Below are positions 44,237 through 53,872 of a DNA stretch of 64,000 nt, piece after piece. A model generated the notes under the pieces. It did not search any database and was not told the origin of the DNA. It was given only the letters and a program-made list of their open reading frames with translations. Every line of letters starts with the position of its first letter. Position 1 is the stretch's first letter. The stretch is taken from NCBI GenBank assembly GCA_015522475.1, contig WAMF01000019.1, forward strand, positions 1 to 64,000. Direction: 5' to 3'. Made by a program: the position numbers and the translations under genes. Source of the stretch: Microcaldota archaeon. GTDB lineage: Archaea; Micrarchaeota; Micrarchaeia; Anstonellales; J096.

Positions 44237-45681
44237 ATGGCACTTCCCAAGAAAGAACAGTTTTCAGAATGGTATAGCGAGTTGATGAAAGAAGCGGAGC
44301 TCGTCGATTTGCGTTATGGCGTTAAGGGCTTCATCGTCATAAGGCCATGGGCCATGTACATTTTGAAGAAGATGTACTCTTACTACGAGGAGATTTTGGA
44401 GCAATACAACCACATGCCCGTCCATTTTCCTGTTGTGATTCCCGAGCGTTATTTGACAAAGGAAAAGGAGCACATAAAAGGCTTCGAGGGCGAGGTCTTT
44501 TGGATAACGCGAGCTGGGTTCAACGAGTTGGAGGAGCGCTTAGCCCTTCGACCAACGAGCGAAACAGCTATGTATCCCATGTACGCTTTGTGGACGTCTG
44601 GCAGAAAGGACCTGCCTATAAAGCTCTACATGAGCGAGCTCGTCTGGCGTTATGAGACGAAAGCTACTAGGCCCTTAATCCGCGGCAGGGAGTTCTGGTG
44701 GATAGAGGCGCACTGTGCCTTCGCTACTAAGGAAGAAGCTGAGGCGCAAGTTAGGGAAGATATGTTAACGGCTAAGAAGGCTATATGGGAGACCTTTGGC
44801 GTGCCCTTCCTCTTCTTTAAGAGACCGGAATGGGATAAGTTTGCCGGTGCCGATTACACCTTCGCCGCTGATACGCTTATGCCCGACGGCCGCGTCTTGC
44901 AGATAGCGACGACGCATCTCCTTGGGCAGAATTTCAGCAGACCCTTTGAATTCAAGTTCATGGATACAGATGGCAAGGAGAAGTATGCGTGGCAGACGAG
45001 CTATGGGCCGGGCATGAATAGAATATTGGCAGCGATGATTTCGTGGTTCGGCGACGATAAAGGGTTAATACTGCCCTTCCACCTCGCGCCCGTTCAAGTC
45101 GTTATCGTACCCATCTTTAAGGACGAGAGTAAAAAGAAAGTACTCGGCTACGCTAAGGAAGTCGAAGGAAAACTTAAAGCGCTCGGCTATAGGGTAGAGC
45201 TTGACGACGCTGAAGATGAAACACCTGGCTTCAAATTCAACAAATGGGAGTTGAAGGGCGTGCCCATTCGCGTTGAGGTTGGGCCAAAAGAAGCTGAAGC
45301 TAAGGCTTTAACTGTTGTTAGGAGAGATAACAGGGAAAAGCAGCAACTCTCCCTGGAAGAAGCGGCGAAGATTGAGGAGATAGCCAAGCTGATGTTCGAG
45401 GAAATGAGAAAGAAGAATGAGGAAAAGATGCGCTCCTCCATCGTCGATGCCAAGAACTGGGATGAGCTGAAGAAGGGCATCGAAGAGGGCAAGATTGGAG
45501 GGTAGCGTTCTGCAGCGTCGATAAAGACGGCGAGGCATGCTACGCTAAAATAAAGGAAGAGTTAAAGGCAGAGGTACGAGGCGAGCTGCTAGAAAAAGAA
45601 GAAAAGCCCGAAAGCGGCGCTAAATGCGTCGTCTGCGGCAAGGAAGCGAAGCACATTGTTTATGTGGCGAGGCAGTACTGA
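44237..45681 (+). CDS. proS: Prolyl-tRNA synthetase (archaeal/eukaryal type); conserved C-terminus in -1 frame after TAG 45503
   Basis: LRPTSETAMYPMYALW, VWRYETKATRPLIRGREFWWIEAH. Shifted frame gives VAFCSVDKDGEACYAKIKEELKAEVRGELLEKEEKPESGAKCVVCGKEAKHIVYVARQY*. Confidence 0.95.
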
Positions 45682-49188: not shown

Positions 49189-49325
49189 ATGATGTCATGG
49201 GCGATTGTGCTTTAAAGGTTTTTCCCGAAAGAACTTCGGGATATGTAAGTTTTAAAATGTGTTTGGAGACTTATACATATAACCATTTTAAATCCTTCGC
49301 CTCAAAAAGAAATGGGGTCGAGAAG

Positions 49326-49979
49326 ATGATATCAAAAAAGGAAATCGACGAGATAAAGGCAATGAGCAATGAGGAGTTTAAAAGATGGGTAGAGGAAAAG
49401 TTAGCAGATAAGGATCATATAACACAACTTGAGGATTTATACTTCGACGAGAATTTTAACGACACTGAAAAGCGATATATCCTTCTAACCTATGAGGCCA
49501 AGCGAGAGGATGCCCTATACAAAAGCTTCTGGGACTATCTCATCGACAACTATGGGTTGATTAAGCTGTTTGAGAAATATCTTACTGTATTAAACTTCTC
49601 GAGGACAGAAGGCACATCGATGAAGGAATTAGAAAAATGGGAAATTTACCTGTCACAAAAGCGAGAGATGGGCATGACTAAGCTAAAGGAGATTATAGAG
49701 CGGGGAGGCAGCATGGCGGGAAAAATCGAGGCTGCAAAGGCCCTAAAAGAGAATTGGGGGATGGAAAGACTAGGACAGGTGCTCAATAGCATAGCACCGC
49801 CCATAGCCAGATATATACATGAAGCCATCGATGATAAAAATATGGAAAAGAAGGCAAAGGAAGTGACGAAACAAATGGAGAAAAAAGGGGCTAAGAAGGA
49901 TAAGAAGGAAAGCATATGGAAGAAAGTGCTGAAGATAGGCGTGCGCGAACTCTTTAGTAAAGGCAGGAGGAAGAAGTGA
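49326..49979 (+). CDS. Hypothetical charged helical protein
   Basis: Intact ORF from internal ATG (MISKKEIDEIKAMSNEEFKRW...). Confidence 0.6.
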   Translation: MISKKEIDEIKAMSNEEFKRWVEEKLADKDHITQLEDLYFDENFNDTEKRYILLTYEAKREDALYKSFWDYLIDNYGLIKLFEKYLTVLNFSRTEGTSMKELEKWEIYLSQKREMGMTKLKEIIERGGSMAGKIEAAKALKENWGMERLGQVLNSIAPPIARYIHEAIDDKNMEKKAKEVTKQMEKKGAKKDKKESIWKKVLKIGVRELFSKGRRKK

Positions 49980-50545
49980 ATATGAGAATAAAAGATTTCT
50001 TATTTTTAGGTCTGCTGGCAACGGGCATGGCTATAGGCAGTGGCGTCCAAATCAGTAGGCAGCCTATGCTTTTAGAGAAAAGTAAGGAGGCTTTTAAAGA
50101 CATGGAGATTGTAATCGAGAGAAAACTCACCAGCCATAGAATACCTCCGGAGAGAAGAGATATTAAGAACTATAAATTGTACATCATAGAGCTTGTGAAG
50201 AAAAAGCTGTCGAGTAAAGAAGGTGAAAAAATCATAAACAAAATGAAGAAGTCGGGAGTATTTCCTCTTAGCATTATCTCCGGGGAAGAGTTAGGCGATT
50301 TCAACGATATGTACAGCGTAAAGGACAAAGAAAAAACATTCATACGAACGCGCATATTTGCAGAAGCCCTGTGGGAGAGCATCTCCAAACTAAACATTGT
50401 CGAGCAGGAAAGGATTCGAATAGAAGCAGAGGATCTTGGCATATACTTAGAAAGCTGGGACAGCAGAACAGCCCCCTACATTACAGACCCAACCCTCTTC
50501 AACCTCGTGTGGGGCCTCTATTTAAAAGATGCTGTTGGACTATGA
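49976..50545 (+). CDS. Hypothetical protein with N-terminal TM/signal anchor
   Basis: FLFLGLLATGMAIGSGV hydrophobic N-terminus; 4-nt overlap with upstream CDS. Confidence 0.6.
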   Translation: MNMRIKDFLFLGLLATGMAIGSGVQISRQPMLLEKSKEAFKDMEIVIERKLTSHRIPPERRDIKNYKLYIIELVKKKLSSKEGEKIINKMKKSGVFPLSIISGEELGDFNDMYSVKDKEKTFIRTRIFAEALWESISKLNIVEQERIRIEAEDLGIYLESWDSRTAPYITDPTLFNLVWGLYLKDAVGL

Positions 50546-51029: not shown

Positions 51030-51442
51030 TTACTTTTCTCTGAAGTGTTCTTTTAACCACCTAGCCAACTCGTCGAGGGCCGTTGTGGGGCCTCGCGTCT
51101 TTTCTCCACTCTAAAGAAAAGCTTAAGCCCCACAAAGCGGAGCCTATCCTCTAACTCCTGCCTAGAAGGACCATTGAGCTCCCACTCAGATTCCTCCTGC
51201 ACATACATGTTGCGGAGGAACTTATGGTCCTTAACAGCAAGGAAAAGTTTAGGAGCTTTCCCTTCCTCTACAATCTCTCTCACCCTGATCCACCTATGCT
51301 TTTTGAAGGCTTCCAATGATGGGCTATAGAAAGCCGAATACAGCTTACCTTCTAAAACCTTCCTGAAGCCCAGCTCAGCCATCCGCTTGAGCAGTTTTTC
51401 CTTATCAAAGGACAAAAACTTCCGCTCGACTTCCTTTGCCAT
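51030..51442 (-). pseudogene. Short CYTH-domain (CyaB-like) protein, frameshifted near 51100-51103
   Basis: VERKF(L), WIRVREIVE, KDHKF, ELEDRLRFVGLKLFFRVEK; shifted frame continues TRGPTTALDELARWLKEHFREK*. Confidence 0.65.
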
Positions 51443-51492
51443 AGAGTCGTTAGAAAGAAAACGTTAATAAAAAGAATAGTAGAAAAAGATAT

Positions 51493-53827
51493 ATGACATC
51501 TATTGATTTGTACGGACTCATAAAAAGGTATCCTTTCTTACGGAAGAAATCTATGTATAACGAAGTGAATCAGCTCACACAGAAAATCCTTCGTGAAAGT
51601 TTTGAACACAAAAAGAAATCCTTTCTGGGCTTGGGTATATTCTCAACAGAGCCTAAGCCAGAGAAAATAGCTAGAGAAAACATGAGAGAAATCCTTGAAA
51701 TTGTAAAGGTAACAAAAGGTATTGCAGTTAAATACCAGATTGTAAGCTACTTCAGAGATCTAATCAAAAGAATCAGAAAGTTTGAATTGAAGAGATGGAG
51801 CGAGACATACACAAGCAGCCTAGAAAGATATGTAGAAAAGAACTATGAGCGAATAAGAAGGAACTATATAAGATTTCTAAGAAAAAGAAAGAGATTGGCC
51901 TTGAAAAACTTATTTAATGAAAAGGTGGTACCAGCAGTTGAAATAATAGAAAAGCTAACAGAAAACAAAATTCCTCTCCTTTCATATAGTAGCTTAACGA
52001 GGGAGAAGCTAACTGAGGACATAAAAGTCCTCCAAGAGTGGTTCAATAAATTAGGATTCGAAGTTAATGTATCTGGACAATGGGATGAAAAAACAGAAAA
52101 AGCTTATGAAAAGATAAGAGAGATGTATAGATATGTCAAGTCTCATGAGTGGGGTACATTAGATTTGGAAAAAACAGACAATTTCCAAAAATATTTAAAG
52201 ATAGTAGGCATCGGAGAAGAAACGCCAGGTTCATACTGTGCCACAGGAGCTCATTTCCTACTTCTGGAGAGATATGGTTTGGACTTCTCAGAGATGGCAA
52301 AATATAGTTTTCCAGATACTTGGCAGTTTTTTCTTAATCCTGTAAAATATGGAAAAAAACAAGACAATGGTATACCGCTTTCATGTAGATGTCAGTAATA
52401 AAAAAGGGAATGAGATAAATGTAATGGATTTAGAAAACATCCACGATGGATCTATACTATTCCTATATTTTCCGTGGAGCGAATATAATAAATTAGCTGA
52501 GAAGTTTGGTAAAAAAATCAATAAAAATAAGCCAATCAAAGATGTTCCCACACACATGATTGTAAAAATAGGAGGGTTGTTTTATCATGTGATTGGAAAG
52601 AGGGTTTACAGACTAAATAGTATAGAATTGAAGAATTTACTTGTAAAGAATAATGCTATACTGCGTGGTATTGGGATCCCTACTGAAGGTGTATATGCTC
52701 AAGGAGTTAATGGAAGTAAACAAGCAAATAAAAAGAAACAGATAGAAATCAAGCAATTGTTGGACAGAACAAGATTGTGGATATCTCATTATTACAACAC
52801 AGATGAATTTTACAATAAAATTACTACACTAGTTAAAACAACCAAAAGAGAAGAGGTTAAGCTAGCAACCATGTACATTCTATGGAATGAGATACCTCCT
52901 ACAAAGGAAACTAAACCCCTAACTAGAGAAAGGGTGAAGAGATATGCTGCATGGTTAAGTGCAATGGTTGAAAAATCTGGAAGTTCTTTAGCCAAAAAGA
53001 TTCTTGAAAAAATGGCTGAAGATATCGTTGGAAAACATTTACCTACGAGTCTCACACCTTTTCAAATGAGGGCCCAATACATATACTCCGAATTTAAAAA
53101 ATATCCATCTGTCCTTAAGAGAATGGTAAGTATAATAAAAGTATGGTATGGCAACGCCAAGCCCATAAAAAAGTTGCTTGAAGAGATTCAAAAAGCCAAA
53201 ACAGAAGAGAAGAAAGACACAGCCTACGTTGCTCTCTTTCATACGGCTCTTTTGTAAGAAGAGTGGGATAACAAAATAGAAGTCTCTTCTGTTTTAGCTA
53301 AGACGTATCTCAACCTAATTTCCAAAGATTTGGAGATGTTTAGGAATGGCGTTCAACAAAAAAGTATATTAGTTATGAATACATTAACACCGAAGATGTC
53401 TTTAAACACTATTAAGTATGAAAGTGTACGAATAGAGGATATGGCATTAAGTATAGCTCTTAGATACCACTTTGGAGATTACATTAAAGTATGGATTCAA
53501 TACTCCACTGCCTTGATAGCTCTTCAACTCATAAAAGAAGGCTCATTGAACTTAAGAAGTAGTTATACTATTGGCCCTACAAGTAATAGATGGCGCGACC
53601 TTTATAGGAAAATTTATGGAACAGAAAATCCCTTTGTAGATTACGTTATAAAGAAATATATAGAAGTCAATCATGCTGTCCCAAGTGGTATCGTAAATGT
53701 GGAAAAGATGGTGCAGCTCACCTCTACTCAATGGTTCAAAATGAATTATTCAAGGCATATAGAGGAGTTGCTAAGATTGAAAGGAAAGAATCCAAAGGAA
53801 GAAAAGAATGTTCAATTAGAAAAATGA
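51493..53827 (+). pseudogene. Large protein with peptidoglycan-binding-like repeat and CHAP/NlpC-like Cys/His pair, broken by one frameshift and one in-frame stop
   Basis: ORFs 51493-52398, 52349-53257 and 53330-53827 join into one reading by a shift at A7 (52353-52359) and readthrough of TAA 53255-53257. Confidence 0.65.
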
Positions 53828-53872
53828 TGCACATTTTAAGAGTGGCGCAGAGATAAAAGCTAGTTGAACTAA

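Follow-up and report, generated by a model that had tools for sequence, protein, structure and literature searches.

Modular peptidoglycan hydrolases have been reported in 175 of 3,706 archaeal genomes, with a signal peptide on 32% of the homologues, and some of these enzymes kill bacteria (PMC12352652). Within the phylum of the archaeon studied here, NLPC_P60 scored above its cut-off in 17 of 196 genomes. Given that hydrolases of this kind are already published, an archaeon with such a gene would not be new, and the surprise expressed in an earlier note on this DNA, that archaea lack peptidoglycan, is weakened both by the 17 genomes and by the published enzymes (PMC12352652). The locus lies in a window of 64,000 nucleotides (the whole stretch of DNA analyzed) and resembles the modular hydrolases in that a wall-binding-like and a catalytic-like part would be combined in one protein. 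It differs in that the survey requires one Pfam catalytic domain and one Pfam wall-binding domain (PMC12352652), and the gene described here has neither above cut-off. Its product has no obvious transmembrane stretch and, in agreement with the earlier note, no obvious signal peptide (the maximum hydropathy over 19 residues is below 1); many of the published hydrolases are likewise without a signal peptide. We consider it somewhat likelier than even that an AT-rich orphan gene restricted to one genus was recently inactivated here, in a copy that occupies a variable site flanked by conserved genes on a Micrarchaeota chromosome. The broken gene is real and probably decaying, and its nature as an enzyme is unproven.

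The gene is spread over three open reading frames (ORFs) that are separated by two breaks:

51493..52398, + strand: ORF1, frame 1, 301 aa, with a helical N-terminal region, PG_binding_1-like helices and the putative catalytic Cys
52349..53257, + strand: ORF2, frame 2, 302 aa, with the putative His part followed by a helical region homologous to the sister protein P0002
52353..52359, + strand: A7 run, where coding switches from frame 1 to frame 2
53255..53257, + strand: in-frame TAA, which breaks the ancestral frame; P0002 continues without a stop across this position
53258..53827, + strand: ORF3, frame 2, the last 189 aa of that ancestral protein, listed from a TTG at 53330

Frame and codon-usage analysis indicates that the three ORFs at 51493-53827 belong to a single gene, of about 775 codons, that has been interrupted. 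In a codon-usage scan with ten conserved genes of the window as its training set, the coding signal followed frame 1 until about 52.2 kb and frame 2 thereafter to near 53827, and the frame 2 signal was present on both sides of the TAA. P0002 is an intact protein of 381 aa from G001, a sister genome of the same Micrarchaeota genus (Candidatus Micrarchaeota archaeon, JALWQW010000030.1; P0002 at L005/L016), and is the sole relative of the broken gene that we found (36% identity over P0002 residues 86-374, E 1.5e-35). It covers only the second half of ORF2 plus ORF3, and the pairwise comparison with ORF3 gave 34% identity across 198 columns (E 7e-30). Since the alignment with P0002 extends to either side of the stop, with a single residue opposite it, the TAA at 53255 is, by this comparison, a lesion in a once continuous frame; it is a pseudogene-type frame interruption relative to an intact homologue. 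The coordinates of the three ORFs are confirmed; the proposal that they form a single gene is borne out by a coding signal that continues across the breaks and by a homologue that spans the TAA, and the codon-usage scan and the P0002 alignment agree that the frame past 53255 stays coding-like into the ORF at 53330.

The joint at the A7 run is of a different kind. Given that the first half has no relative that we could find, ORF1 and ORF2 are united there by frame statistics, and P0002, which sits at another locus and is missing the first half, gives the joint no comparative support. The suggestion that removing one A from the run would join the frames therefore holds as far as the coding frame switches there, but there is no homologue of the first half with which to compare it. 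An alternative is that ORF1 and ORF2 are separate overlapping genes, with the TAA as the sole lesion. Two genes would fit with the separate ATG of ORF2 at 52349 and with P0002, a stand-alone gene that matches only the later part; yet ORF1 and ORF2 share an overlap of about 50 bases, the coding signal switches in or near it, the ATG of ORF2 falls right at the frame switch, and a two-gene arrangement would place the putative domain's Cys on one protein and its His on the other. We regard two separate genes as improbable. Programmed -1 frameshifting at the A7 run was ruled out, given that the second frame is +1 (or -2) relative to the first. Transcriptional slippage may occur at the run, but the TAA would still not be crossed.

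The search of related genomes for a homologue that had been proposed yielded P0002, intact and corresponding to the C-terminal part only. P0002 is homologous to the broken gene across the helical C-terminal part, including the position of the TAA, and is equally AT-rich (GC3 0.343), but differs in being intact, in lying elsewhere and in being without the PG-binding-like and Cys-His half. Its locus is nonsyntenic, on another contig and flanked by AMMECR1 and mevalonate-kinase-like genes. For the first half, searches of 59 near relatives, the phylum, genome contigs, viral contigs, phages and plasmids yielded no relative. Those weak matches to that half whose location could be read, in a family B DNA polymerase, in an alanyl-tRNA synthetase or opposite a sugar-nucleotide enzyme gene, were discarded as chance. 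The second half had no relative outside G001, even with a two-sequence profile, and searches of phage, plasmid and viral-contig sets returned no relative of any part of the gene.

Alternatively, errors of sequencing or assembly could have introduced both breaks into this metagenome-assembled genome (MAG), with the gene intact in the cell, which we treat as a serious minority possibility. The A7 run is an error-prone homopolymer, a contig of the sister MAG has a coverage of 3.1, and the same contig as the broken gene carries a one-base frame lesion in another gene, the prolyl-tRNA synthetase at 44237-45678 (+ strand), 6 kb away. That lesion lies near 45497; the two parts of the gene share 92% and 98% identity with the intact gene of the sister genome, the tail in the other frame ends in ...HIVYVARQY, and this is the only copy seen. 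Because the synthetase is a housekeeping gene, its lesion is, judged from sequence, probably an assembly error. We compared 680 kb of the window's genome with 822 kb of G001 and obtained 381 matches, 252 of them at no less than 50% identity (221 kb); about 2 convincing frame lesions were present among these 252 conserved genes, most other lesion flags having been judged by eye to be antisense shadow ORFs or natural ends. If errors are evenly spread, the chance of two independent ones within 2.3 kb is, by our arithmetic, near 2e-4. In addition, the TAA requires a substitution error, for which a homopolymer slip is insufficient. We favor real decay over assembly error given that a pair of lesions within 2.3 kb is improbable at about 2 per 221 kb, although clustered errors at low local coverage could undo this argument.

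The domain content of the protein was considered from four features in its first half and around the frame switch:

52015..52104, + strand: PG_binding_1-like domain, one half only, at profile positions 3-33 of 57 (19 bits in Pfam against a cut-off of 23, E 0.0016)
52237..52239, + strand: TGT codon of the putative nucleophile Cys of GSYCATGAHFLL, part of a post hoc motif in the sequence
52553..52555, + strand: CAC codon of the putative catalytic His of PTHMIVKIGG, from the sequence and the motif test
52586..52588, + strand: CAT codon of a second His (LFYHVIG), 11 residues on; several NlpC/P60 domains have a second His 12 residues on

The match to PG_binding_1 (PF01471) comprises residues 175-204 and shares the pattern LQ..F..LGF...VSG.WDEKT over 30 aligned residues, but it spans half of the profile (31 of 57 positions), and its score (19 bits, or 20.3 bits in the genome search) stays under the curated cut-off of 23 for the whole domain. 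The PGB_1-like repeat that had been pointed out is thus present as quoted but amounts to a half domain below threshold. The endolysin family PHROG 1224 was matched weakly over residues 174-218 (E 6e-4). An intact 178-aa protein from another genome of the same order (L014 1246-1782, + strand) has PG_binding_1 above the cut-off and no catalytic domain that we could see; PG_binding_1 by itself therefore does not imply lysis.

For the Cys-His region, nothing credible was found in Pfam, PHROGs, NCBIfam, PADLOC or PDB sequence searches; no CHAP (PF05257, in Pfam), NlpC/P60 (PF00877, in Pfam, PHROGs and NCBIfam) or C39 family was matched, and the broken gene matched no defense family. A designed beta-propeller in the PDB was matched (E 0.001), but we do not read this as homology, given that the target repeats one short IGGLxY strand five times. 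A profile of our own, built from 17 NlpC/P60 domains of the phylum, scored the region at 0.3 bits, which 413 of 5,000 shuffles and 99 of 1,642 decoy windows equalled. The region does have the NlpC/P60 (PF00877) residue pattern of a Cys, a His on the strand after a G-D/S strand and a third polar residue. In a looser form (Cys, G[DS] strand, His strand), defined post hoc, this pattern occurred in the broken gene, in 7 of 20 NlpC domains, in none of 701 sister-genome ORFs and in none of 20,000 shuffles. The broken gene therefore shares with NlpC/P60 and CHAP the Cys first, then the G[DS] strand and the His strand, as well as the nearby second His, but differs from them in having no profile match and in scoring like shuffles against our NlpC profile. 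Two proteins of the phylum have C-terminal NlpC/P60-like domains (L085 115-1938, + strand, 608 aa; L086 274-1962, + strand, 563 aa), with nucleophile regions ACACTVSVILKEAG and SCACFVSYAFQKAG, respectively.

Structure prediction, suggested earlier as a check, was applied to the Cys-His region and to the helical part. The AlphaFold model of the Cys-His region, from one sequence, is unusable (pLDDT 40, and about 26-35 around the Cys); in this weak model a helix begins at the Cys and both His residues lie on strands. Neither it nor a two-sequence model of the helical part (pLDDT 50) had a significant Foldseek match; about half of the best 50 PDB matches of the Cys-His model were papain-like peptidases, all insignificant. 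We consider a papain-like domain possible but doubtful, and CHAP/NlpC in particular is unproven. The Cys-then-His order that the earlier note took as typical of CHAP and NlpC/P60 amidases is present and fits papain-like enzymes generally, not those two specifically; the readings as a CHAP/NlpC amidase, a lysin or an antibacterial effector are unproven, with no NlpC/P60 match in Pfam, PHROGs or NCBIfam and a shuffle-like score against our NlpC profile.

We infer that an intact protein would be modular, with a helical N terminus, a PG_binding_1-like helix pair, a Cys-His domain that may belong to the papain-like superfamily, and an extended helical C terminus, the part that appears to be kept in the sister species. 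If active, the Cys-His domain could cleave a peptide or amide bond, with bacterial peptidoglycan as a possible substrate, and the helical part could act as a scaffold or partner-binding region. The present copy is not expected to yield an active enzyme, since the frame changes within the putative catalytic domain and a stop follows. A viral or prophage endolysin, that is, a peptidoglycan amidase acquired by the archaeon, would agree with the PHROG 1224 match and the foreign-looking composition of the gene; against it, phage, plasmid and viral-contig relatives were not found, no phage genes adjoin, no catalytic family was matched, and about 350 helical residues extend beyond the domain, which is unlike an endolysin. 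We consider an endolysin very unlikely. A bolder reading, to which we give little weight, is that of an orphan, exchangeable, effector-like Micrarchaeota family, in which a helical C-terminal module would be joined in some species to a wall-binding-like and papain-like half aimed at neighboring cells, the present copy being intact in nature or recently lost. Should the intact family turn out to be a peptidoglycan hydrolase that is secreted or injected, the archaeal weapons described in 2025 would gain a divergent type that Pfam does not detect. For now, the locus illustrates how a reduced archaeal genome gains and loses an AT-rich, lineage-specific gene at a variable site, and is a reminder that frame lesions in MAGs need raw-read checks.

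The surroundings of the gene were compared with the matching site in G001, and two further features are needed here:

51053..51442, - strand: CYTH-domain gene with its 3' end missing; a 187-aa homologue is aligned over its residues 1-117 only (22.4 bits against the CYTH cut-off of 23.2 in Pfam)
51443..53872, no strand: AT-rich segment that holds the broken gene, flanked by the CYTH and HD-domain genes (GC 0.34-0.40 versus 0.41-0.51)

The GC content was 0.34-0.40 across 51-54 kb versus 0.41-0.51 in the rest of the window, and GC3 was 0.32-0.34 in the broken gene versus 0.47-0.56 (about 0.5) in five neighboring genes, so the remark that this DNA is AT-richer than its neighbors was correct by both measures. 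The matching G001 site, on contig 6 (L029), has relatives of the 903-aa gene, the 260-aa gene, the AAA_18 kinase, CYTH and SAM synthetase genes in the same order. The segment with the broken gene is missing there, and CYTH and SAM synthetase are separated only by an unrelated AT-rich ORF of 119 aa (L029 7353-7712). The G001 interval between AAA_18 and CYTH has an extra 2.8 kb without counterpart in the window. The CYTH gene of the window is short of about its last third and lies 25 bases from the AAA_18 kinase gene. Given the differing content in G001 and the truncated CYTH gene, the site is, from this comparison, variable and partly eroded. The view of a foreign-looking, decaying gene in an archaeon is thus supported by the homologue, the composition, the site comparison and the lesion counts. 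A search for the terminal repeats of a mobile element returned only short, chance-like repeats. The 2.8 kb in G001 includes a 525-aa helical ORF (L029 4059-5636) and a 289-aa membrane-protein-like ORF (L029 5739-6608). Two adjacent genes without a family occupy 49197-50545 (+ strand) of the window; for the first, the sister genome has a relative of 33% identity at the equivalent position, and an ORF of similar size comes next there.
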